From Aromatoleum petrolei (lineage in GTDB: Bacteria; Pseudomonadota; Gammaproteobacteria; Burkholderiales; Rhodocyclaceae), in the NCBI RefSeq assembly GCF_017894385.1, contig NZ_CP059560.1, positions 4,100,501 through 4,164,500 of the forward strand: a stretch of 64,000 bases of DNA. Direction: 5' to 3'. The stretch's first letter is position 1. Each line of letters begins with the position of its first letter. This document shows positions 222 to 14,451 of this stretch, in pieces. The position numbers were made by a program, and so were the translations under genes. Below the pieces are notes generated by a model that searched no databases, was not told the DNA's origin, and saw nothing but the letters and a program-made list of their open reading frames with translations.

Positions 222-1724
222 ATGGAGAGTTACCACGGACAACTGCTGAGCGAAGGCACGCGGCGCTTTCTGGAGCGCCCGCGGCGCATGCTGATCGGCG
301 CCGAGTGGGTCGAGGCGGCGAGCGGCGAGACGCTGGCGGTGGTCGATCCGGCCAATGGCGAGAAATTTGCCAGCGTGCCGGCGGGCGGGGCGGCGGACAT
401 CGACCGTGCAGTCGCTGCGGCGCGCCGCGCTTTCGAGAGCGGTGACTGGCCGAAGATGCGCCCGGTCGATCGCGAGCGGCTGCTGCTGAAATTCGCCGAC
501 CTGGTCGAGGCGAATGCGCAGGAGCTTGCGGAGATCGAGTCGCTCGACAACGGCAAGCCGGTGACGATGGCTCGCCACGTCGACGTCGCACTGGTGGTCG
601 ATTTCCTACGCTACATGGCGGGCTGGGCGACCAAGATCGAGGGCTCGACGATGGACGTGTCGGTGCCCATCATCCGCGATCGCGAGTTCTTCGGCTTCAC
701 GCGCCGCGAACCGGTCGGCGTGGTCGGCGCGATCATCCCGTGGAACTTCCCGCTGCTGATGGCGGCGTGGAAGGTGGCGCCGGCCCTCGCCACCGGCTGC
801 ACGATGGTGCTGAAGCCCGCCGAGGAGACGCCGCTGTCGGCGCTGCGCTTCGCGGAACTCGCGCTGGATGCGGGCTATCCGGCGGGCGTGCTGAACGTCG
901 TCACCGGCCTCGGACACACCGCGGGCGCGGCGCTGGCGTCGCACAAGGGTGTCGAGAAGGTCGCCTTCACCGGTTCGACCGAGATCGGCAAGCTGGTCGG
1001 CAAGGCAGCGCTCGACAACATGACGCGCGTGTCGCTGGAACTGGGCGGCAAGAGCCCGGTGATCGTGCTCGACGACGCGGACGTGAGTGCGGCAGCAGCA
1101 GGGGCGGCGCAGGCGATCTTCTTCAATCAGGGGCAGGTGTGCACGGCCGGTTCGCGGCTCTTCGTGCATAAGAGCCGCTTCGACGAGGTCGTCGAGGGGC
1201 TGTCGGGGATCGCCGCCGGCATGAAGCTCGGTGCCGGCATCGACCCGACGACGCAGATCGGCCCGCTGGTGTCGGCCACGCAGCAGAAGCGCGTGCTGGG
1301 CTACATCGAGAGCGGCTTCGCCGAAGGCGCGCGGGCCGCGACCGGCGGCGCGGCGGGCGAGGGCGCGGGCTACTTCGTGAAGCCGACGGTGCTGGTCGAC
1401 ACGACGGACGACATGAAGGTCGTGCGCGAGGAGATCTTCGGACCCGTCGTCGTCGCGATGCCCTACGAGGATCTCGACGAAGTCGCTCGTCGCGCGAACG
1501 ACACGCCCTACGGGCTCGCCGCGAGCATCTGGTCGAACGACCTGTCGCGCGTGCATCGCCTGATCCCCAAGATCCAGGCCGGCACCGTGTGGGTGAACTG
1601 CCACAACATCCTCGACAACGCGATGCCCTTCGGCGGCTTCAAGCAGTCCGGCATCGGGCGCGAGATGGGGCGCGCGGTGCTCGACCTATACACCGAATCG
1701 AAGTCCGTGATCATGGCTTTGTGA
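222..1724 (+). CDS. NAD-dependent aldehyde dehydrogenase (phenylacetaldehyde dehydrogenase-like)
   Basis: A 500-residue class I/II aldehyde dehydrogenase, full length. Visible motifs are WNF (174-176), KPAEET (198-203), FTGSTEIG (249-256), the general-base Glu273 in LELGGK and the catalytic Cys307 in NQGQVC. The sequence resembles FeaB/PeaE/StyD phenylacetaldehyde dehydrogenases, including the TRVSLELGGK and AGTVWVN-H stretches. The start has an AGAGGAG-type ribosome site. It lies 64 bp before qhpA in the same direction, so it probably oxidises the aldehydes made by the amine dehydrogenase to carboxylic acids. The enzyme class is certain; the substrate is inferred. Confidence 0.9.
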   Translation: MESYHGQLLSEGTRRFLERPRRMLIGAEWVEAASGETLAVVDPANGEKFASVPAGGAADIDRAVAAARRAFESGDWPKMRPVDRERLLLKFADLVEANAQELAEIESLDNGKPVTMARHVDVALVVDFLRYMAGWATKIEGSTMDVSVPIIRDREFFGFTRREPVGVVGAIIPWNFPLLMAAWKVAPALATGCTMVLKPAEETPLSALRFAELALDAGYPAGVLNVVTGLGHTAGAALASHKGVEKVAFTGSTEIGKLVGKAALDNMTRVSLELGGKSPVIVLDDADVSAAAAGAAQAIFFNQGQVCTAGSRLFVHKSRFDEVVEGLSGIAAGMKLGAGIDPTTQIGPLVSATQQKRVLGYIESGFAEGARAATGGAAGEGAGYFVKPTVLVDTTDDMKVVREEIFGPVVVAMPYEDLDEVARRANDTPYGLAASIWSNDLSRVHRLIPKIQAGTVWVNCHNILDNAMPFGGFKQSGIGREMGRAVLDLYTESKSVIMAL

Positions 1725-1788: not shown

Positions 1789-3402
1789 GTGAAGGCGCAG
1801 ACCACACAACACACGCGCAGGCGACTGCGCATTGCCGGCGCCGTGGCGCTGGCCCTGGGAATGGCGGGCTCGCTGCCGGCCGCGGCGGCGCAGGATCCCG
1901 GCCGCGACGTCATCGACAAGAAGTGTGCGAGCTGTCACCTCGAGGACGGCAAGCTCACGCGCATCCCGGAGATGCGCAAATCGCCCGAAGGCTGGGACAT
2001 GACCGTCGTGCGCATGGGCATCTGGCACAAGGTGGAGCTGACGGCCGAGGAGCGGCGCGCGGTCGTGAAGTACCTCGCGGATCGTCAGGGCCTGGCGCCG
2101 TCCGAGGCGGCCCCCTTCCGCTTCCTGACCGAGCGGCGCCCGAACATGCAGGACACGCCGCCCGACGACGAGATGGCGCAGATGTGCGGCCGCTGCCACA
2201 GCTACGGCCGGGTCGCGCTGCAACGGCGCGATGAGGGCGAATGGCGCAAGCTGATGCACACCCACCTCGGCCAGTTCCCCAGCGCTGAATATTCGGCGCT
2301 CGGGCGTGACCGCAACTGGTGGGAGATCGCGCGCGACAAGATGCCGGGGCGGCTGGCGGCGATGTATCCGAAGAACACCGACGCCTGGCGCGACTGGAGC
2401 CGCGCGAAGCACCGGCCGGCGGACGGGCGCTGGATCGTTGCCGGCGAGCGGCCCGGCTGGGGCGCCTACACCGGCACGATGACCGTGACCGCGAAGGGCA
2501 AGGACCGCTACGAGGTCGGCTACGAGCTGCATTTCGGGCCGGGCAACACCGTGCGCGGCAAGGGCGAGTCACTTGTCTATACGGGCTACGAATGGCGCGG
2601 TACGGCGCAGCTCGGCAATGAGCACACGCAGTCCATTTTCGCGCTGAGCGAGGATGGCGGCCGGATGAGCGGGCGCTGGTTCATGCGCAAGGCCGACGAG
2701 ATCGGTGCGACTTTCGAGGCGGTGCGTGCCGACAAGGCGGCAAAGAACGCGGTCGCGGCAGTCACGCCGCACATGCTGCGGGCAGGCGAGACGGCGACGG
2801 TGACGGTGGCAGGAGCGGGCCTCGATGCCAGGCTCGACCTCGGCGCGGGCGTGGAGGTGGTGGAGTGGCTCGGCAAGTCCGCGGAGCAGCTGAAGGTGCG
2901 CGTCAAGGTCGCGGCGGATGCCGCGCCGGGGGTGCGCAAGCTGGCAGTGGGCGGGCGCGCGTCGGACAAGACCGTCGCCGTGTATCGCCAGATCGACTCT
3001 GTGCGCGTCGAGCCGGCCTTCGGTATCGCGCGCTTGGGCGGTGGCAGCGGCACGAATCCGCCGATGACTGCGCAGTTCGACGCCGTTGCCTTCCTCAACG
3101 GTGCCGACGGCAAGCCGGGCACCGAGGACGACGTGCGCCTCGGCAGCGTGCCGGCGAAGTGGAGCACCGAGCCCTTCGACGAGCGCGCCAAGCATGACGA
3201 AGACCTCAAATTCGCCGGCCACATGGAGCCGCACGGCCAGTTCCTGCCGTCCTTCGCCGGCCCCAACCCCAACCGCCGCGGCCTCAACAACGTCGGGAAC
3301 CTGTCGGTCGTCGCGACCGTTCAGGACGGCGAACGCACGCTCGATGCGAAAGGCCAGTTGATGGTGACCGTGCAGCGCTGGAACACCCCGCCGCTGCGCT
3401 AA
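1789..3402 (+). CDS. qhpA: Quinohemoprotein amine dehydrogenase alpha subunit (diheme)
   Basis: Large subunit of QHNDH (also called PeaA), a periplasmic enzyme that oxidises primary amines to aldehyde and ammonia and passes electrons to a small redox carrier. The 537-residue product starts with an Arg-rich n-region and a hydrophobic Tat/Sec-like signal peptide ending near residue 34 (AAAAQ). Two c-heme sites follow, CASCH (46-50) and CGRCH (133-137), then beta-rich domains typical of the alpha subunit. I use the GTG at 1789 because GGAG lies 6 bp upstream at 1779-1782. It is 15 bp ahead of qhpD. Confidence 0.95.
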   Translation: MKAQTTQHTRRRLRIAGAVALALGMAGSLPAAAAQDPGRDVIDKKCASCHLEDGKLTRIPEMRKSPEGWDMTVVRMGIWHKVELTAEERRAVVKYLADRQGLAPSEAAPFRFLTERRPNMQDTPPDDEMAQMCGRCHSYGRVALQRRDEGEWRKLMHTHLGQFPSAEYSALGRDRNWWEIARDKMPGRLAAMYPKNTDAWRDWSRAKHRPADGRWIVAGERPGWGAYTGTMTVTAKGKDRYEVGYELHFGPGNTVRGKGESLVYTGYEWRGTAQLGNEHTQSIFALSEDGGRMSGRWFMRKADEIGATFEAVRADKAAKNAVAAVTPHMLRAGETATVTVAGAGLDARLDLGAGVEVVEWLGKSAEQLKVRVKVAADAAPGVRKLAVGGRASDKTVAVYRQIDSVRVEPAFGIARLGGGSGTNPPMTAQFDAVAFLNGADGKPGTEDDVRLGSVPAKWSTEPFDERAKHDEDLKFAGHMEPHGQFLPSFAGPNPNRRGLNNVGNLSVVATVQDGERTLDAKGQLMVTVQRWNTPPLR

Positions 3403-3417
3403 CGCCAGGAGAGAGAC

Positions 3418-4845
3418 ATGGCGACACTGCAGATCCAACCCCACAACTACCGCGCGATCCGCAAGGGCGACCGGCAGGTGCTGTTGCACGTGCCGACGAC
3501 CTCGATCTTCGAGCTGGATCCGGCCGCGTCGGACCTGCTCGGGCTGTTCGAGACGAGCCCCGCGGTCAGCGCGGATGACATCCAGGGCCGCTTCGACGGC
3601 CGCTACACGCCGGCCGAGCTGTGCGACAGCCTGAGCGATTTCATCGACCTCGGCATCGTCGCGCCGCAGCCGAAGCATTACGAGATCCCGGCGCGCGTCG
3701 TCGAGCGCTCGCCGCTCAAGACGCTGGTGCTGACGCTGACGACGGGATGCAACCTCGGCTGCAGCTACTGCTACCGCGAAGACCTGACCTCGCCGAAAAA
3801 TTCCTCGGTGATGGACTTCCAGACCGGGGCGCGCTCGATCGACCTGCTGATGGAAGAGGCGAGCGGGCACGAGCGCATCGGCATCGTCTTCTTCGGCGGC
3901 GAACCGCTCACGCGCATCGCCGTGATCCGCGACCTCGTCGAATATGCCGAGGAGAAGGCCGCGGCGGCCGGCAAGGAAGTCGAATTCTCGCTCACGACCA
4001 ACGCGACGCTGCTCACCGACGAAATCATCAACTTCCTCGACGCGCATCGCTTCGGCATCACGGTCAGCATCGATGGCGACCAGGCGCAGCACGACCGCCA
4101 TCGCCGCACCATCGCTGGCGGCGGTACTTACAAGACGGTCGCGATGCGCGTGAAGCGGCTGCTGGATAAGTACAAGTCCAAGCCGGTCGGTGCGCGGGTG
4201 ACGCTGGCCAGCGGCAACCTCGACGTTGCTGGCATCTACAAGCACCTGCATGACGAACTGGGTTTCTTCGAAGTCGGCTTCGCGCCGGCGACGGCCGGTC
4301 CGGATTCGCCGGTCGGCCTGAGCCGCGAGGAGCTCGACATCGTCTTCGAAGCCTTCAAGGCGCTCGGCCGCGAGTACATCAGCGAGGCCAAGCGCGGCAA
4401 GCGCCACGGCTTCGGCAACATGCAGCAGCTGATGACCGACCTGTGGATGGGCACCCGCAAGGTGCTGCCCTGTGGCGCCGGCGTCGGCCTGCTGGCGGTC
4501 GGCACCAGCGGCAAGATCTCGCTGTGCCACCGCTTCACGGGTTCCGAGCTGGAAACCTTCGGCGATGTCGACAACGGCATCGCGCGCGAGTCGCTGTCCG
4601 CCTTCATGACCCGCGCGCAGGCCCCGCACGGCGCCTGCCAGGTCTGCCCGGCGCGCAGCCTGTGCGCCGGCGGCTGCTACCACGAATCGTATTCCCAGAG
4701 CGGCGACCCCTTCCAGCCGACTTTCGAATACTGCGACCAGATCCGCGAATGGACGGCCTTCGGGCTGGAGGCCTTCGGCGAGATTGCTCTCGCCAACCCG
4801 GCGTTCTTCAACGCCGCCATCGAACAAAGGAGTGCCCTGCAATGA
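3418..4845 (+). CDS. qhpD: Radical SAM/SPASM peptide thioether-forming enzyme QhpD
   Basis: QhpD makes three intra-peptide Cys-to-Asp/Glu thioether links in the gamma subunit precursor QhpC. The 475-residue protein has an N-terminal peptide-recognition region (1-90), the radical-SAM cluster motif C111-x3-C115-x2-C118, and a C-terminal SPASM part whose cysteines are visible at 352, 370, 407, 410, 416, 420 and 439. Its stop overlaps the qhpC start by ATGA (4842-4845), so enzyme and substrate are translationally coupled. Function is known from the Paracoccus family and the match in context is strong. Confidence 0.95.
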
Positions 4846-5162
4846 AACGACTGCGAGCCCTGAACCACAAGGCGCACCTGATCGAACAGGCGGCCAGCGA
4901 TGGCCACCGCGAGGAGGTGCAACTAATGAGCAGCGTCGTCGGCTGCACGACCACCTTCGACCCCGGCTGGGAAGTCGATGCCTTCGGCGGGCTGGCGAGC
5001 CTGTGCCAGCCGATGGAGGCCGACCTCTACGGCTGCACCGACCCCTGCTGGTGGCCGGCGCAGCTTGCCGACAGCCTGAACACCGCGCGCGACTGGACCG
5101 ACGGCAAGAACTCGGCGCTGCGCGACTGGCGCGAACTGCAGACCCTGTTCCCGGGAGACTGA
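4842..5162 (+). CDS. qhpC: QHNDH gamma subunit precursor carrying CTQ
   Basis: Small catalytic subunit, 106 residues. A 28-residue leader is expected, so the mature chain starts near Met29. All residues modified in the family are in register: Cys35-Glu44, Cys55-Asp61 and Cys69-Asp77 for the three thioethers, and Cys65-Trp71 for cysteine tryptophylquinone. Relative to the Paracoccus mature numbering the offset is exactly 28. Trp71 must be hydroxylated twice and joined to Cys65 to form CTQ. The gene overlaps qhpD and is followed 3 bp later by qhpB. Confidence 0.95.
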
Positions 5163-5165
5163 GCG

Positions 5166-6254
5166 ATGAGGATGCTGCCCATCAAGAAAGCTTTCGTGGC
5201 CCTGTGCTGCGCCGCGGCCGCGCTCCCCGCGCTCGCGGCCGAGCATCTGCTCACCGTCACGCGCCCCAACAACCTGCACATCATCGATCCCGCCAAGCGC
5301 GCGATCGTGCGCACGATCGAGCTGCCCGGCGACGGCATTCCCGGCGCCATCGCCTTGCCCAAGGACGGCAAGATCGCCTATGTGCTGACCAACCGCATGG
5401 AGAGCGTCGTCGGCGTCGATCTCGACACCGGCAAGCCGGTGTTCCGTGCCGATTTCTCGACGCCGCAGCGCCGCGTAAAGGCCTTCTTCGCACTCGCGGT
5501 GAGTGAGGATGGCAAGGAGCTCTACGTCCATCAGGCGCCGGTGCAACTGGGCCGGTCGGAGTACACGGTCGAGGATACCTCCATCGCGGTCTTCGACACC
5601 GCCGACGGCATGAACGCCAAGCCGCGCCGCAGCTTCCCCGCACCGCGCCGCATCACGGTGATGGCCGCCACCGGCAAGCCGGACCACCTCATCGCGCTCG
5701 GCTGGGACATGTACCTCTTCAACACGAAGACCGGCAAGATCGAGCAGACCTTCCCGGTGCGCCACTGGAACCGGCCGGGGATCGGTGAGCCGGACGTGCT
5801 CGCGATGTGGGGGACCTTCGAGCAGGCGCGTGCCCTGTCGACGCCGTATTTCGTCGCCAAGACCGACGCGGCGCCCGATTCCCCGGAAGCCTTCAAGGCG
5901 GGCATCGCGGTGTTCGACCTAGATGCCGAGACGCTCAAGGTGAAGGAGTTCGAGAATGCGACGACGGCGATGTTCTCGTCGGTGATCAACCCGGTCGCTC
6001 GGAACGAGGCCTTCCTCGTGATGAACCAGCTTACCAAGATCGATGTGGACTCCGGCAAGCTGCTGAAGCGCAAGGACCTCGAGCAGACCTTCTACGCCAT
6101 CAACATATCCGGCGACGGCAGGGAGGTCTACGTCGGCGGCGCCCTCGACAAGATCGCGATCTACGACGCGGACAGCTTCGAGAAGAAGGGCGAGATCCAG
6201 ATGCCGGGCGGTGCCGACCAGTCGATCGGCTGGATGCGGGTCGTGAAGCGCTGA
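5166..6254 (+). CDS. qhpB: QHNDH beta subunit, seven-bladed propeller
   Basis: The 362-residue product has a clear Sec signal peptide (hydrophobic to about residue 24, ALAAEH). WD/YVTN-like propeller repeats follow, seen as recurring DGK-x-AYV and D-x-DTGK patterns. In QHNDH the beta subunit is a seven-bladed propeller that helps enclose the gamma subunit next to the diheme alpha chain in the periplasm. It sits 3 bp after qhpC and 10 bp before qhpF. No heme or metal motif is seen. Confidence 0.92.
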   Translation: MRMLPIKKAFVALCCAAAALPALAAEHLLTVTRPNNLHIIDPAKRAIVRTIELPGDGIPGAIALPKDGKIAYVLTNRMESVVGVDLDTGKPVFRADFSTPQRRVKAFFALAVSEDGKELYVHQAPVQLGRSEYTVEDTSIAVFDTADGMNAKPRRSFPAPRRITVMAATGKPDHLIALGWDMYLFNTKTGKIEQTFPVRHWNRPGIGEPDVLAMWGTFEQARALSTPYFVAKTDAAPDSPEAFKAGIAVFDLDAETLKVKEFENATTAMFSSVINPVARNEAFLVMNQLTKIDVDSGKLLKRKDLEQTFYAINISGDGREVYVGGALDKIAIYDADSFEKKGEIQMPGGADQSIGWMRVVKR

Positions 6255-6264
6255 GGACCGGGCA

Positions 6265-7983
6265 GTGATAGGGCTGCGCACGGATCGCCTCCTGCCCCTG
6301 CAGGCGCTCGACTGGGCCTTGCCCATGGTGAGGCAACGCGCCGGGTCGGTTGCCGGCGTCGTCGTCCTCTCCTGTGTGGGTTCGGCGGCGGCCTTGCTGC
6401 CGCCCTACCTCACGCAGCGGCTCGTCGACGAGGGCATTGTCGGCGGCAGGGTCGATCTCGTGCTGCAACTGTGCGCGGCCTTTCTCGTCCTGATGGTGGG
6501 GGGAGTCCTTGTCGAGACGCTGTCGCGCCTCACTTACCTGAAACTCTCCGCGCACGTCCTCTTCGGCCTGCGCGAGCAGGTGTGGCGGCACTTGCAGACG
6601 CTCGCGCCGACCTACTACGCGCGCACCCGCGGCGGCGAGATCCTGTCGCGGCTCGACGGCGACGTCGCCGAGGTGCAGCGCTTCGCCCTCGATGCGCCGA
6701 TGGCGGTGCTCAACGGCGTTTTTTCGCTGGTCGTCGCGCTGGTCTTGATGCTGTCCCTGAGCCCGATGCTCACGGCGCTCGTGTTCGCGCTCGTGCCGCT
6801 GCAGGTTGCGGCGCTGATGTTCTCGCGGCCCTGGCTGGAAAACAGTACGCAGGCATTGCGCAAGGAAAGCGCCGCGATGTCGAGCTTCTTCGTCGAATCG
6901 CTGCGCGCGATGAAGTTCATTCAGGCGTCGAACGCCGCACGCCGTCAGGAGGCGGGCCTGCGCGCGCATCACGGCGACTACTTCGCCGCGCTGCGCCGCT
7001 CGCAGCTCGCCTCGCTCGGCGCGGGCGGGCTGCAACGCGTACTGTCGGGCCTGGGCGTGCTGTTGGTGTTCGCGGTCGGCGGCTCGCTCGCGGCGGCTGG
7101 CGACCTATCGGTCGGTGTCGTCGTGGCCTTCATCGCCTACACCACCCGCGCAGCGGGGCCCTTGCAGACACTGGCGGGCGTGTTCATGGGCTGGCAGCGC
7201 GCGAAGGTCAGCCTGCAGCGCATCCAGGAGCTCGCCGCCGAGCGGCCTACCGTTTCATCGCCGGCCCAGCCCGTCACGCTCGCACTCCCGGTGCGGGGCG
7301 AACTGCGGTTGGATGCGGTGCGCTTCGGCTATGGCGCCGAGGCGGTGCTCGATGACGCGACACTCGACATCCCCGCCGGTACCAAACTCGCCCTAGTCGG
7401 TGCGTCCGGTGCAGGCAAATCCACACTGATCGACCTGTTGCAGCGCCACTACGATCCGCAGGCCGGGCGGCTGCTGCTCGACGGCGTGCGCATCGATCTG
7501 ATCGACCTGGTCGAACTGCGCCGCGAGGTCGTCGTCGTCGACCAGGAGCCCGTGCTGATGCCCGGCACGGTGCGCGACAACCTGCGCTTCGTCGCCCCCG
7601 ATGCCGACGAAGCGGCACTGCTGCGCGCGCTGGAGCTTGCCGGCCTGGCGAAACTCGCGCACGCGGGCGGGCTCGACAAACCGGTCGGGGCGATGGCCGC
7701 GGCGCTGTCGCGCGGCGAACGCCTGCGCATCGCGTTGGCGCGCGCGATCCTGCAAGATCCGGCGGTGCTGATCCTCGACGAAACGACGTCCGGGCTCGAT
7801 CTCCCCGTCGCGCAGGCCATCATCGCCGCCGTCGATCGCATCTTTGCCGCTCGCACGCGCATCGTCATCACCCACAATCTCGCCTCCGTCGGTGTGGTCG
7901 ATCGCGTCATCGAATTGCGCGACGGCCGGCTCGTCGAGCCCGAGCCGACGCGGCCCGTTGTACCGCTGCTGAGGGTGGTATGA
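6265..7983 (+). CDS. qhpF: ABC exporter QhpF for QHNDH biogenesis
   Basis: A fused ABC exporter half-transporter of 572 residues: six membrane helices in about 1-310 and an ATPase domain in 345-560. Walker A GASGAGKST is at 379-387, signature LSRGE at 481-485, Walker B ending in Glu506, and the switch His at 537. The start is GTG at 6265. In the Paracoccus pathway QhpF is needed to move the processed gamma subunit to the periplasm. The stop overlaps the qhpE start (ATGA, 7980-7983). Confidence 0.9.
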   Translation: MIGLRTDRLLPLQALDWALPMVRQRAGSVAGVVVLSCVGSAAALLPPYLTQRLVDEGIVGGRVDLVLQLCAAFLVLMVGGVLVETLSRLTYLKLSAHVLFGLREQVWRHLQTLAPTYYARTRGGEILSRLDGDVAEVQRFALDAPMAVLNGVFSLVVALVLMLSLSPMLTALVFALVPLQVAALMFSRPWLENSTQALRKESAAMSSFFVESLRAMKFIQASNAARRQEAGLRAHHGDYFAALRRSQLASLGAGGLQRVLSGLGVLLVFAVGGSLAAAGDLSVGVVVAFIAYTTRAAGPLQTLAGVFMGWQRAKVSLQRIQELAAERPTVSSPAQPVTLALPVRGELRLDAVRFGYGAEAVLDDATLDIPAGTKLALVGASGAGKSTLIDLLQRHYDPQAGRLLLDGVRIDLIDLVELRREVVVVDQEPVLMPGTVRDNLRFVAPDADEAALLRALELAGLAKLAHAGGLDKPVGAMAAALSRGERLRIALARAILQDPAVLILDETTSGLDLPVAQAIIAAVDRIFAARTRIVITHNLASVGVVDRVIELRDGRLVEPEPTRPVVPLLRVV

Positions 7984-8675
7984 GCGTTACCGTCGGTATC
8001 GTCGACGGCGGCTTCACAGGCGTCCCGTCCCACGCTCTGCACCGAGCAGCGACTTTCACTCCGGTCCCGGACGGCAGTGTGCGGCGCGAGCCCGCTGGCG
8101 GTCGTCCGCTACGGCACGGCGAAGCGGTGGCCTCGCTCGTGCTTGAGGCCGCCCCTGCGGCCCGCCTCATCGACGCGCGTATCGCCTCGCACCGGCACGC
8201 GCCGACGCCGGCCATGGTTGCCGCGGCGATCGAATGGTGCGTGGGCGAGGGCGCGCGCGTGGTCAACCTCAGCCTCGGCCTGCTCGAAGACCGCACCGTG
8301 CTGCGCGAAGCGTGTACACGCGCGCTCGAGCAAGGCGTCGTGCTCGTCGCGGCGGCGCCTGCCCGCGGCACGCCCGTTTTCCCCGCCGCCTATCCTGGCG
8401 TTATCGCCGTGAGCGGCGATGCGCGCTGCGCACCCGGACAGTGGTCGCTCCTCAAGGGCGAGACGTCCGGCGCTGCGGACTGGGGCTGTTCCCCCGCCGG
8501 GCCGGGAAGGATGAGCGGAGGCGCCAGCATGGCCACGGCGCGTTTCACCGGCATCCTCGCGCATCATTTCACGCAGTACCCCGCCGCAGACCCGCAAGGG
8601 CTCGCGGATCACCTCGCCGCCCGCGCCAGCTGGCATGGGCGGGAATACAAGAGAATCGCGGAGATCGATTCATGA
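7980..8675 (+). CDS. qhpE: Subtilisin-like leader peptidase QhpE
   Basis: A compact cytoplasmic S8-family serine protease (231 residues, no signal peptide). The triad is Asp9 in GIVDGG, His46 in RHGEAVAS and Ser183 in GGASMAT. It removes the 28-residue leader of QhpC after cross-linking. The oxyanion-hole Asn usual in subtilisins (AAGN) is replaced here by AAAPARG near residues 124-130; this may be normal for the dedicated QhpE branch. The gene overlaps both neighbours by ATGA, so qhpF, qhpE and the first U32 gene should be made together. Confidence 0.88.
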   Translation: MSVTVGIVDGGFTGVPSHALHRAATFTPVPDGSVRREPAGGRPLRHGEAVASLVLEAAPAARLIDARIASHRHAPTPAMVAAAIEWCVGEGARVVNLSLGLLEDRTVLREACTRALEQGVVLVAAAPARGTPVFPAAYPGVIAVSGDARCAPGQWSLLKGETSGAADWGCSPAGPGRMSGGASMATARFTGILAHHFTQYPAADPQGLADHLAARASWHGREYKRIAEIDS

Positions 8676-9574
8676 CAAACATGATGCACACCCCCACCCC
8701 CAACAGTGGCACCCGACCCATCGAACTGGGCTTCGCTCTCGTCGACGAACGCGAACTGGCCGCCTTCGCGCGGCACGATCGCCTCACGCGCGACGATTAC
8801 CTCGACCAGTTGGGCGAGGCCCGCGATTGCGTCACGCTGCCCGACGACGCCGAACCTACGCACTTCTTCCTCGGTAGCGAGTTCTGCGAACACCTGCTGC
8901 CCAGCGTCGAAGCCGTCGACCGCGCCGTCGCGCTGTGCGAGCGCTGGGGCCTCACCTTCGGCCTCGTCACGCCCATCGCCTGCGACGGCCTGTTCGATCC
9001 GCTGCGCGCCGCCCTCCAGCGCCTGCCCGCCGGATCCGAAGTCACCGTCAACGACTGGGGCGTCGCGCGCCTCGTGCAGCGCGAGTTCCCGGCGCTGCGC
9101 CCGGTCGCCGGGCGGCTGCTCGGCAAGATGCTCAAGGACCCGCGGCTGCCGTCCGCGACCTGGGCGCGCATGTACCCCAACGGCCTGCGCGCCGGTCCCT
9201 TCCGCGACATCCTCGACGGGCTGGGCATCGGCCGCCTGGAACTCGATTTTCCGCCCTTCGGTGCCGCCGACATGTATGCCGGCATCGACTTTCCCGTCGG
9301 CGTGCGCGCACCCTACGGCTACATCGCCAAGGGCCGCATCTGCAAGCTCGGCTCGCTGTCGCTCGACACGCCGGAGAAGTTCTCGCCCGGCCACAAGTGC
9401 CGGCGCGAATGCCTCGGCTTCAACGAGGTCGGCGCACGCCCGGGCACGCACGAACTCCCCACCTCGCAGCGCGGCAACACCATGTACTACCGCCACGCGC
9501 AGGGCATGGCCGCGGCCGTTGCCGAGGCCGTCAACAACGGCTGGGTCAGCCGCATCGTCCTCTCGGGAGCCTGA
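8672..9574 (+). CDS. U32-family protein, UbiV-like, in the qhp operon
   Basis: A 300-residue U32 (collagenase-like) family protein that looks like UbiV, one half of the iron-sulfur UbiU-UbiV hydroxylase that works without O2. The UbiV cluster ligands have plausible counterparts: Cys72 in FLGSEFC (UbiV YLGEAVC), Cys224 in GRIC, and Cys243-x3-Cys247 in HKCRREC. The start is the ATG at 8672, overlapping the qhpE stop. The next U32 gene starts 2 bp after its stop. The operon position suggests a step in CTQ formation, possibly tryptophan hydroxylation, instead of ubiquinone synthesis. Family and cluster ligands are seen; the substrate is inferred. Confidence 0.8.
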   Translation: MTNMMHTPTPNSGTRPIELGFALVDERELAAFARHDRLTRDDYLDQLGEARDCVTLPDDAEPTHFFLGSEFCEHLLPSVEAVDRAVALCERWGLTFGLVTPIACDGLFDPLRAALQRLPAGSEVTVNDWGVARLVQREFPALRPVAGRLLGKMLKDPRLPSATWARMYPNGLRAGPFRDILDGLGIGRLELDFPPFGAADMYAGIDFPVGVRAPYGYIAKGRICKLGSLSLDTPEKFSPGHKCRRECLGFNEVGARPGTHELPTSQRGNTMYYRHAQGMAAAVAEAVNNGWVSRIVLSGA

Positions 9575-9576
9575 AC

Positions 9577-10623
9577 ATGAAGATCACCGCCCCCATCAGC
9601 ACTCCCGCCGAAGTCGAACCGCTCGTGCGCGCCGGCGCCCGCGAACTCTATTGCGGCGTCGTCCCCCCCGACTGGATCCAGCGCTTCAACACCTCCGGCG
9701 TCAATCGGCGCGTGTTCGGCAACCTCAACGGCTACGCCGATCTCGAGCGCGTCGTCGAGAAGGCCACCGGGCTCGACGCCGAAGTCTTCCTCGTCCTCAA
9801 CGCGCAGCAGTACGGCGAACAGCACCTCGACGCGCTCACCGAGATCGGCGCGCGCTTCCGCAGCATCGGCGGCAAGGCCGCGATCGTCGCCGACATCTCG
9901 CTGATCGCCTCGCTCGCCGCCAACGTGCCCGACCTCGACATCCACGTCAGCTCGGTGGCCACCTGCCGCAACGTCGAATCCGCGCGCTTCTTCGCCGCGC
10001 TTGGCGCGAATCGCATCATCCTGCCAAGGGACGTGACGGTCGCCGAAATCGCCGCGATCACGACGGAACTGCCCGAGCTCGACATCGAAGCCTTCGTCCT
10101 CAACGACGGCTGCGTGTTCGAAGAGGGCACCTGCCACACCGTCCATCTGCCGATGAACAAGGGCGGTCCGATCTGTATCGACAACTACCAGTTCGAGTAT
10201 CAGGCGACCGGCGGCGGCCAACCGCAGGAGCGCGCGCTGCGCCGCCTGGAACAGAACGATCTCGATTACAAGCGCTGGCTCTGGTACCGCTTCGGCAACG
10301 GCTTCACGTCTGCACCGAACGGCTACCCTTGGGGCCCATGCGGCGTCTGCGCGATGCCGGCGATGCACGCGGCGGGCGTGCATTCGGTGAAGATCGCCGG
10401 CCGCGAGGGCGCGAGCGAACGCAAGATCAAGAGCGTCGAGCTCGTCGCCCGCGTACTGGAGCGCATCGAGGCGGGCGAGCCGGCCGACGAGGTGCGCAAG
10501 TTCGCGGTCGGATTGCGCGACGCGCCGAGCCACTGCGCGAGCGGCTACATGTGCTACTACCCCGAGGTGCGGAGCCGCCACGAGCTTGGCGATACCGAAG
10601 GAAAGCTGCTGACGGCCGTCTGA
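9577..10623 (+). CDS. U32-family protein, UbiU-like, in the qhp operon
   Basis: A 348-residue U32 protein resembling UbiU, YhbU and RlhA. The cluster motif C179-x6-C186 has the same spacing as UbiU C169/C176, followed by Cys200 and Cys255/Cys258. The U32 signature region includes NDGC and, near the end of the core, IAGREGA (273-279). UbiU-type proteins use a [4Fe-4S] centre and, in ubiquinone synthesis, prephenate as oxygen donor. Here the protein is the last gene of the qhp operon, 2 bp after its UbiV-like partner. The pair probably forms a heterodimer. Extra cysteines at 320 and 326 are not part of the usual set. Confidence 0.8.
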   Translation: MKITAPISTPAEVEPLVRAGARELYCGVVPPDWIQRFNTSGVNRRVFGNLNGYADLERVVEKATGLDAEVFLVLNAQQYGEQHLDALTEIGARFRSIGGKAAIVADISLIASLAANVPDLDIHVSSVATCRNVESARFFAALGANRIILPRDVTVAEIAAITTELPELDIEAFVLNDGCVFEEGTCHTVHLPMNKGGPICIDNYQFEYQATGGGQPQERALRRLEQNDLDYKRWLWYRFGNGFTSAPNGYPWGPCGVCAMPAMHAAGVHSVKIAGREGASERKIKSVELVARVLERIEAGEPADEVRKFAVGLRDAPSHCASGYMCYYPEVRSRHELGDTEGKLLTAV

Positions 10624-10644
10624 GGCGAGGCAGGCAGGATGCGC

Positions 10645-10715
10645 AAAAAAAAGCCCGAGCTCTGGAGGGGCTCGGGCTGTAATCCACACCAAAGGAGGAA
10701 GTGGAGGAGACAGTT
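10645..10715 (-). ncRNA. Predicted anti-SD sibling sRNA, copy A
   Basis: Read on the minus strand, a promoter TTGAAC (10742-10747), 17 bp, TAGTAT (10719-10724) is followed by a transcript of about 70 nt starting near 10711-10715. The 5' part has CUCCUCC, then a hairpin with CCAC/GUGG stem whose loop holds CCUCCUU. It ends in a terminator with stem AGCCCGAGC / GCTCGGGCT and a run of eight U (10645-10652). This copy is the most divergent of the five, with a weaker first stem and no conserved AT-rich upstream block. It converges on the end of the UbiU-like gene. Confidence 0.72.
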
Positions 10716-10921: not shown

Positions 10922-10994
10922 AAAAGAAAAAAGCCCGGACCTGTGAAGGGCCGGGCTAAATCCACACCAAAGGAGGAGGGTGGAGGAGACGGTT
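10922..10994 (-). ncRNA. Predicted anti-SD sibling sRNA, copy B
   Basis: Minus-strand unit with -35 TTGCAA (11021-11026), 17-bp spacer and -10 TAAGAT (10998-11003). The transcript of about 70 nt begins in GAACCGUCUCCUCC. A hairpin follows (CCAC-CC paired with GG-UGUGG, one bulge) with loop UCCUCCUUU, which contains the 16S anti-Shine-Dalgarno heptamer CCUCCUU. The terminator stem AGCCCGG/CCGGGCT is followed by U6CU4. A perfect dyad AAATTTGT-N3-ACAAATTT lies upstream (11028-11046). Confidence 0.78.
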
Positions 10995-10997
10995 CAA

Positions 10998-11046
10998 ATC
11001 TTAACGACAACGCTTGTGCGTTGCAATAAATTTGTACGACAAATTT
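10998..11046 (-). promoter_or_regulatory. Promoter and upstream dyad of sRNA copy B
   Basis: -10 TAAGAT at 10998-11003 and -35 TTGCAA at 11021-11026 (17 bp apart). A perfect 8-bp inverted repeat with a 3-bp centre is at 11028-11046, followed on the plus strand by a T-rich block. The dyad sits just upstream of -35, where an activator or UP element would act. Confidence 0.65.
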
Positions 11047-11208
11047 TTTTATCGCTGGATCAGGCATCCGAATGTGCACGGCTGCCGCTGCAATGCGTGG
11101 GCAAAGCGCGCAATCGATGCACTCGGACGACGCCGAGTTTGATGTGCGATGTTCCAGGGGGCGGTCGGCGCTCGTGTTTCGGCACCGTCGGCGAAGGGGC
11201 CGAGTCGG

Positions 11209-11280
11209 AAAAGAAAAAGCCCGAGCAGCTGAGGCCCGGGCTTAAATCCACACCAAAGGAGGAGGGTGGAGGAGACGGTT
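11209..11280 (-). ncRNA. Predicted anti-SD sibling sRNA, copy C
   Basis: Minus-strand unit with -35 TTGCGT (11307-11312), 17-bp spacer and -10 TAGTAT (11284-11289). The transcript core from GAACC through both CUCCUCC motifs to the GUGUGG side of the first hairpin is identical to copies B, D and E. The terminator stem AAGCCCG / CGGGCT has its own loop sequence and ends in U5CU4. The dyad seen in B and D is degenerate here. Confidence 0.77.
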
Positions 11281-11283
11281 CAA

Positions 11284-11312
11284 ATACTATAGAACCGGCT
11301 TGTGCGACGCAA
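11284..11312 (-). promoter_or_regulatory. Promoter of sRNA copy C
   Basis: -35 TTGCGT (11307-11312) and -10 TAGTAT (11284-11289), spacer 17 bp, minus strand. The CGCACAAGC stretch right after -35 is shared with copy B. Confidence 0.65.
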
Positions 11313-11451
11313 TAATAATGCACTTCAAATTTTTATATCCCGCGATCAGATCTTCGAATGGCCAGGCGGTGATGGGGATTTCTAACCATGTCTTATACAA
11401 GACTGGAATTGTGCGTCGCAACAGCGCGAAGCATTACGAAGACCTTCTGGC

Positions 11452-13947: not shown

Positions 13948-13965
13948 GGCCGCTTGCGGGCGTAG

Positions 13966-14037
13966 AAAAGAAAAAGCCCGAGCGACTGAGGCTCGGGCTT
14001 AAATCCACACCAAAGGAGGAGGGTGGAGGAGACGGTT
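13966..14037 (-). ncRNA. Predicted anti-SD sibling sRNA, copy D
   Basis: Minus-strand unit with the best promoter of the set: -35 TTGCGC (14064-14069), 17 bp, -10 TATGAT (14041-14046). The transcript core matches B, C and E. The terminator is a perfect stem AAGCCCGAGC / GCTCGGGCTT with U5CU4. A TTTGT-N3-ACAAA dyad lies at 14074-14086, at the same distance from -35 as in copy B. The terminator sits 18 bp after the lysR stop, so it may also affect read-through from that gene. Confidence 0.78.
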
Positions 14038-14040
14038 CAA

Positions 14041-14086
14041 ATCATACGGCACCGTATGCTGCGGCGCAATAAGTTTGTCCTACAAA
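14041..14086 (-). promoter_or_regulatory. Promoter and upstream dyad of sRNA copy D
   Basis: -10 TATGAT (14041-14046; 5 of 6 consensus) and -35 TTGCGC (14064-14069), 17 bp apart. The inverted repeat TTTGT-N3-ACAAA at 14074-14086 starts 5 bp upstream of -35, as in copy B. Confidence 0.65.
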
Positions 14087-14134
14087 TGTTTTTATCGCGC
14101 GATCAGAATCCCCTATGGGCTGACGGGGCTCCAG

Positions 14135-14206
14135 AAAAGAAAAAGCCCGGACGTTTGACGGCCCGGGCTAAATCCACACCAAAGGAGGAGGGTGGAGGAG
14201 ACGGTT
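14135..14206 (-). ncRNA. Predicted anti-SD sibling sRNA, copy E
   Basis: Minus-strand unit with -35 TTGCGT (14233-14238), 17-bp spacer and -10 TAAAGT (14210-14215). The transcript core is the same as in B, C and D. The terminator stem AGCCCGG / CCGGGCT is extended by CG pairs around loop TCAAA, and ends in U5CU4. The upstream dyad is degenerate. It is the outermost copy; nothing recognisable lies between it and the FliD-like gene. Confidence 0.76.
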
Positions 14207-14209
14207 CAA

Positions 14210-14238
14210 ACTTTATTGGAAGAGCTTGTGCAACGCAA
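14210..14238 (-). promoter_or_regulatory. Promoter of sRNA copy E
   Basis: -35 TTGCGT (14233-14238) and -10 TAAAGT (14210-14215), spacer 17 bp, minus strand. An A/T-rich block follows upstream at about 14252-14263. Confidence 0.62.
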
Positions 14239-14451
14239 CATACGTTGCCCGAAAATTTTTTTATCTTCCGATTATCACGATAAATGAAACTGTGTACTCA
14301 ATGGGTTGCAATGGCTTAACTATCTTTTTGGCATGCTGCAATGCAGAATGAAGGCCGCCGCCGCGCAGACGATCCGGCGCACATCACGCAGTTGCGACCA
14401 CGATTCTTGGCCCGATGGAGCGCCTTGCGGGCGTCGTCGGTCAGTGATTGA

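Follow-up and report, generated by a model that had tools for sequence, protein, structure and literature searches.

A U32-type gene pair of qhp operons, seen in Aromatoleum petrolei, as a candidate O2-independent hydroxylase in tryptophylquinone formation

How can the cysteine tryptophylquinone (CTQ) cofactor of a quinohaemoprotein amine dehydrogenase (QHNDH) be made without O2? The question is raised by a qhp operon in the stretch of Aromatoleum petrolei DNA analysed here (the window, 64,000 nucleotides, positions 4,100,501 to 4,164,500 of contig NZ_CP059560.1), in which two adjacent genes of the U32 type, named here qhpV and qhpU, follow the known qhp genes. Aromatoleum reportedly uses these amine dehydrogenases anaerobically, with a CTQ maturation that has no need of O2 (such is said to be the content of Schmitt et al. 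2019), and the finding that this genus can form CTQ without O2 is probably not new. Yet QhpG needs O2, which leaves a step to explain: this flavin adenine dinucleotide (FAD) enzyme dihydroxylates Trp43 of QhpC, and both oxygens come from O2 according to label experiments (PMC7876137). We propose, with a probability of roughly 0.75, that qhpV and qhpU encode a U32-type iron-sulphur pair, V-U, that hydroxylates Trp43 of QhpC (Trp71 of the precursor) without O2. As far as we found in the open-licence full-text literature, the enzyme for O2-free CTQ formation had not been named before: no paper linking QHNDH or tryptophylquinones with U32 proteins turned up there, and PMC7876137 does not mention Aromatoleum.

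The host genome is a single contig of 5.41 Mb. A first-pass annotation of the window had read a qhpA-D-C-B-F-E operon without qhpG, had seen that the first of two U32 genes overlaps qhpE by ATGA, and had suggested that this pair takes the place of QhpG. The operon is indeed as described, at 1789-8675 of the window: QhpA, QhpD, QhpC, QhpB and QhpE match NCBIfam equivalogs, all above their cut-offs, and qhpF was assigned by Pfam and position. The ATGA overlap lies at 8672-8675, and a 2-base gap separates the stop of qhpV (9574) from the start of the coupled qhpU (9577). Likewise, a search of the whole genome with a QhpG profile gave no match in the window. A true QhpG was found elsewhere (G000:C1:192744-194066, 692 bits; PDB 7CTQ is matched with 175 bits), as part of a second qhp operon located around 0.19-0.21 Mb, which also has its own V-U pair adjoining an aldehyde dehydrogenase gene. 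QhpG and V-U can therefore coexist, and are not exclusive. In Aromatoleum aromaticum EbN1 (G100), one qhp operon has V-U with no QhpG nearby, and another has both. A lone QhpG was seen in three genomes of the genus (L154, L155, L156), with no other qhp genes in the fetched 10.8-19.5 kb around it.

The first argument for the proposal is the distribution of QhpD, QhpG and V across genomes. A search of 249 genomes of the family with TIGR03906 gave 37 genomes over the QhpD cut-off, plus a distant one (G242) at 335 bits. These 38 genomes fell into 14 with QhpG only, 16 with V only and 8 with both, and none had neither; V was found in 24 of them and in 0 of the 211 other genomes of the sample. Seven genomes passed the cut-off in a phylum-wide sample of 398; each of the six besides the host carries QhpG (243-551 bits), and the host alone gave a V hit. 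A third sample, the 218 genomes of the family of G423, yielded 4 genomes over the cut-off, and the three new ones all have QhpG beside the operon (210-216 bits). Combined, 46 genomes over the cut-off (G242 is counted in the 38 above and the 44 below, but not here) divide into 23 with QhpG only, 15 with V only, 8 with both and 0 with neither. The complementarity between QhpG and V gives p = 3e-6 in a Fisher test on 44 genomes, kinship being ignored.

Several points define these counts. The number of candidates scored per genome was capped (at most 44 for QhpG, 9 for V in the family and 5 for V in the phylum sample), so that absence here means "not found"; also, the QhpG and V alignments (A1, A3) draw on loci from some of the genomes that enter the counts. 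In the family sample, a hit had to reach 390 bits to count as QhpG; in G103 the gene is divided between two contigs. Weaker hits, at about 100 bits or below, such as the one of 96 bits in the V-only genome G095, were taken as other monooxygenases, because their likes stand beside a true QhpG in G204, G215, G060 and G026. For G696, G818 and G767 the search for V covered about 9.7 kb rather than the genome, and several of the V-only genomes are not complete. Four genomes below the QhpD cut-off do not enter the 46: from the family of G423, G849 (qhpD interrupted by a stop, with a QhpG-like hit of 102 bits alongside) and G835 (a qhpD fragment at a contig edge, with no QhpG or V in 9.9 kb), and from the phylum sample, G297 and G433, with no QhpG at E ≤ 1e-15 and no V.

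The suggestion that the pair replaces QhpG thus stands in part. In its favour, the 15 of 46 genomes in which QhpG was not found all have V. The mutual exclusivity that the first-pass annotation had put forward as a check does not hold, since 8 of the 46, this genome included, have both, and V-U is better seen as an alternative or parallel route than as a simple replacement. The coexistence in these 8 genomes, and in the second operon of this one, would also suit a V-U pair acting at a different anoxic step of QHNDH maturation, on another residue or subunit, while an unrecognised enzyme replaces QhpG. We think this quite unlikely, as the 15 genomes would then have no known Trp hydroxylase, and the fact that each of the 46 has QhpG, V or both would go unexplained.

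When a species-genome collection was scanned by pattern with the V alignment, 59 loci came up, among them loci of Aromatoleum, Thauera, Herminiimonas, Glaciimonas, Sterolibacterium, two Pseudomonas, Telmatospirillum, Rhodospirillales, Acidobacteria and Desulfuromonadaceae. For 31 of the 59, the fetched stretch includes a gene scoring at least 382 bits as QhpD, many of the others being cut by contig ends. Genome searches covered 50 of the loci, one per genome (L113, L117 and L123 come from genomes already represented; L083, L084, L090, L132, L138 and L140 are not among the 50); of these 50 genomes, 46 have a QhpD-like gene at E ≤ 1e-30, over the cut-off in 39; none was found in G675, G683, G684 and G693. 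QhpG-like matches at E ≤ 1e-15 were obtained in 16 of the 50; 11 of these reach at least 190 bits, and the other 5 score 65-123 bits. Beside qhp genes, V-U occurs in at least five orders, including E-V-U, V-U-aldehyde dehydrogenase either before A or divergent from A, B-V-U without F or E in the stretch, B-V-U-F-E, and V-U before A. The operon of a Desulfuromonadaceae metagenome-assembled genome (MAG), L136, reads A-D-C-B-V-U-F-E and is followed by an aldehyde:ferredoxin oxidoreductase gene (L136 14038-15744), and no QhpG was found in this genome (G692) in a search at E ≤ 1e-15. Two further loci (L139 8320-13512 and L174) have qhpD-V-U-F-E-like genes without recognisable A, B or C; perhaps these form a related peptide-modifying system with another product.

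As for the proteins, QhpU is a Peptidase_U32 member (PF01136, 144 bits against a gathering score of 22.4); for QhpV, neither Pfam nor NCBIfam gave a match at E ≤ 0.001. We call QhpV U32-like because its profile matches that of its partner QhpU (96%, E 5e-9) and because the solved U32 protein 5d88 comes first among the VIA matches of its predicted fold, level with other TIM barrels; the matches of both predicted folds are TIM barrels. Neither protein matched an FAD monooxygenase family of Pfam or NCBIfam. A V protein named as that of A. evansii is 96% identical to QhpV. The cysteines that the first-pass annotation had singled out in both proteins are conserved: Cys72, 224, 243 and 247 of QhpV, in a CXnCX18CX3C pattern, are invariant in 48 aligned sequences, and Cys179, 186, 255, 258 and 326 of QhpU are so in 44, with Cys26, 200 and 320 nearly so. 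Cys179-X6-Cys186, Cys200 and Cys255/258 of QhpU recall UbiU, the other spacings being different. Judging from these patterns, which fit Fe-S clusters, both proteins may carry [4Fe-4S] clusters. About four well-conserved cysteines of QhpU (26, 258, 320 and 326) come in addition to the UbiU-type set, and possibly form a second cluster or a site for QhpC binding. Only the Pfam name Peptidase_U32, which applies to U alone, would suggest that V-U are peptidases processing QhpC. The operon already has the leader protease QhpE, and in their cysteine patterns V and U recall the [4Fe-4S] hydroxylases of the U32 family, so that we give this idea hardly any credit.

Is the pair then simply a copy of the ubiquinone enzymes? 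In a 48-row tree, a 100/100 branch separates all 41 V-associated U proteins from E. coli UbiU, the host's own UbiU, TrhP, RlhA and three further U32 proteins encoded by the host; long-branch warnings preclude a finer reading. A placement of the pair inside true ubiquinone UbiU, named beforehand as a finding that would speak against the idea, was thus not what we observed for U. The UbiU model NF047963 gives QhpU 75.6 bits against a cut-off of 440, and the genome keeps a UbiU (564 bits) and a UbiV (40% identical to E. coli UbiV) elsewhere. The U profile matches TrhP with 97, UbiU with 88 and RlhA with 63 bits, and its alignment to the UbiU profile covers 283 columns at 99.8%, the CX6C pair being kept. 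The four invariant cysteines of V align in register with the cluster ligands of UbiV. The description of the pair as UbiV/UbiU-like therefore holds for the cysteine patterns, and has to be qualified for the rest: U lies outside UbiU, and V is like UbiV in its cysteines only. Outside the window, at G000:C1:2478633-2483166 (L006-L008), four U32 genes stand in a row on one strand; the products of three of them are in the tree, apart from the U proteins linked to qhp.

Each of the 24 V genomes has UbiU, taken as a marker of anaerobic ubiquinone synthesis, as do 14 of the 23 QhpG-only genomes (in one of these as a sub-cut-off fragment), so that QhpG-only hosts often have UbiU too. Its presence in V genomes fits hosts that also live without O2; the link with an anaerobic lifestyle proposed at the outset is suggestive only. 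Known U32 hydroxylases act on ubiquinone precursors and RNA, and the hosts degrade aromatic compounds, so one may also think of V-U as hydroxylating some small molecule along the pathway that QHNDH feeds, be it a quinone, an aromatic amine or the product of such an amine. However, a true UbiU is separately present in all 24 V genomes, V accompanies qhp where no aldehyde dehydrogenase was matched (e.g. L049, L071, L076), V was not found in the 211 family genomes without qhpD, and it is complementary to QhpG. We regard this alternative as very unlikely.

The presumed substrate appears intact. A start of qhpC at 4842, likely from the sequence and from relatives, gives a 28-residue leader; Trp43 of CTQ, which with Cys37 was located by alignment to 1jju_C, is accordingly Trp71 of the precursor, as first annotated. 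The GCxxxCWWP block, with the CTQ Cys and Trp, is kept in 72 of 73 QhpC rows, including loci without QhpG (the rows are 55 different sequences, some species appearing twice, and loci with no QhpC hit above 40 bits were left out). We infer the substrate, the number of oxygens added, their donor and the clusters, and the distribution and motifs together suggest a hydroxylation free of O2. In the cytoplasm, QhpD would put the thioether bridges into leader-bearing QhpC. V-U would then hydroxylate the indole of Trp43, most simply at both C6 and C7. QhpE would cut the leader, QhpF would export the product, and an oxidation in the periplasm would complete CTQ. The oxygen donor would probably be an organic compound, for example prephenate, in line with proposals for other U32 hydroxylases: prephenate is a possible oxygen donor (PMC10470549), and in anaerobic ubiquinone synthesis it is given as the source of the hydroxyl, direct U32 evidence remaining to be shown (PMC11574389).

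It may also be that V-U adds a single oxygen, giving 7-hydroxy-Trp, or only prepares Trp43, the rest being done later, for instance by the QhpA haems, in a split of the MauG/LodB type. QhpA does carry two haems, and the modifying enzyme of tryptophan tryptophylquinone (TTQ) and of LodA/GoxA adds only the second oxygen, to a mono-hydroxylated Trp (PMC7876137). Against this, V-U is alone where QhpG was not found, and UbiU-UbiV act on several positions of a single ring. QhpG itself performs both hydroxylations (PMC7876137). We hold this course of events to be improbable.

Hydroxylation of Trp43 by V-U is thus favoured by the complementary distribution of QhpG and V, with none of the 46 genomes lacking both; by the dedication of V to qhpD-bearing genomes and its several gene orders beside qhp; by the CTQ residues of QhpC; by the match of the V and U cysteines to UbiV and UbiU; and by the operons of the Desulfuromonadaceae MAG and of EbN1, with no QhpG found in the genome of the former and none near one of the two operons of the latter. 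Other observations weigh against it. QhpG is also present in this genome and in 7 others of the 46. A QhpD tree of 44 rows implies at least 7 changes for V and 6 for QhpG, and only 6 independent V contrasts are available, in which QhpG went the opposite way about 3 times, stayed unchanged about 3 times and went the same way 0 times (sign test, p 0.25), too few for significance. Within the family, the difference in UbiU between V genomes (24/24) and QhpG-only genomes (12/14) is not significant (p 0.13). No similarity between V and UbiV was detectable by BLAST or hidden Markov model (HMM) searches, and hhalign gave a probability of 4% (E 0.0097). Distant V-U pairs without qhp alongside exist in archaeal MAGs, in Desulfosporosinus and in others, so that the wider V-U family has other substrates or roles; the pair of Desulfosporosinus lacus (L130) is one such, with no qhp genes alongside. 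Finally, a Deltaproteobacterial QhpC beside V-U (L135) keeps CWW without Cys37.

In its fullest form, which we lean towards, V-U inserts both oxygens from an organic donor into a peptidyl Trp, CTQ formation is fully independent of O2, and QhpG is the aerobic alternative. The duality of UbiUV and UbiIHF would then be repeated in a second pathway, and the chemistry would reach anaerobes that pair an amine dehydrogenase operon with an aldehyde:ferredoxin oxidoreductase. If V-U is the missing step, it would represent a U32 hydroxylase acting on a protein, would account for the making of a protein-derived quinone by anaerobes, and would offer a soluble substrate for the unsettled oxygen-donor chemistry of U32 hydroxylases.

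Table 1. Features of the qhp region, in window coordinates.
Feature	Position	Strand	Basis
Aldehyde dehydrogenase, closest to phenylacetaldehyde dehydrogenase StyD	222..1724	+	NF045735 750 bits, below cut-off 850; PF00171
qhpA, quinohaemoprotein amine dehydrogenase alpha subunit	1789..3402	+	TIGR03908 733 bits
qhpD, radical SAM thioether-forming maturase	3418..4845	+	TIGR03906 741 bits
qhpC, gamma subunit precursor	4842..5162	+	NF037958 163 bits (run from 4833); 1jju_C alignment
qhpB, beta subunit	5166..6254	+	TIGR03907 499 bits
qhpF, ABC exporter	6265..7983	+	PF00664, PF00005; operon position
qhpE, subtilisin-like leader protease	7980..8675	+	NF049966 244 bits
qhpV (name coined here), UbiV-patterned U32-like protein	8672..9574	+	Invariant Cys72, 224, 243, 247
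qhpU (name coined here), Peptidase_U32 protein	9577..10623	+	PF01136 144 bits; Cys pattern as in UbiU
58-nt repeat element, copies/units	10642-10699, 10922-11083, 11208-11369, 13965-14126, 14134-14295		

The aldehyde dehydrogenase encoded ahead of qhpA is predicted, and likely, to oxidise the aldehyde product (Table 1). Downstream of qhpU lies an intergenic repeat of 58 nt in 5 copies, 4 of which head a 162-nt unit; each copy contains a hairpin (GCCCG...CGGGC) as well as an A-rich and a purine-rich stretch.

Among known systems, UbiU-UbiV (PMC6747719) share with V-U an adjacent gene pair, CX6C in U and CXnCXnCX3C in V, a U32-type fold for U, and a proposed hydroxylation of an aromatic ring without O2. 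V-U differs by the spacings, CX18CX3C in QhpV against CX12CX3C in UbiV, and CX6CX13CX54C with further conserved cysteines in QhpU against CX6CX16CX38C in UbiU, and by the place of its genes in a qhp operon. With QhpG (PDB 7CTQ; PMC7876137) it would have in common the reaction, on Trp43 of QhpC after cross-linking by QhpD, and the linkage of the gene to qhp, but QhpG is an FAD monooxygenase using O2, whereas the cysteine patterns of V-U fit Fe-S clusters. The RNA hydroxylases RlhA and TrhP also have a U32 domain; those enzymes modify RNA, while V-U is a pair tied to qhp, and the characterised U32 hydroxylases act on ubiquinone precursors and RNA (PMC11574389). MauG and LodB/GoxB, like the proposed V-U, make tryptophylquinone cofactors in proteins, but they are di-haem or flavin enzymes working on a mono-hydroxylated Trp (PMC7876137); the comparison of tryptophylquinone maturases in that paper is one of flavin and di-haem enzymes.

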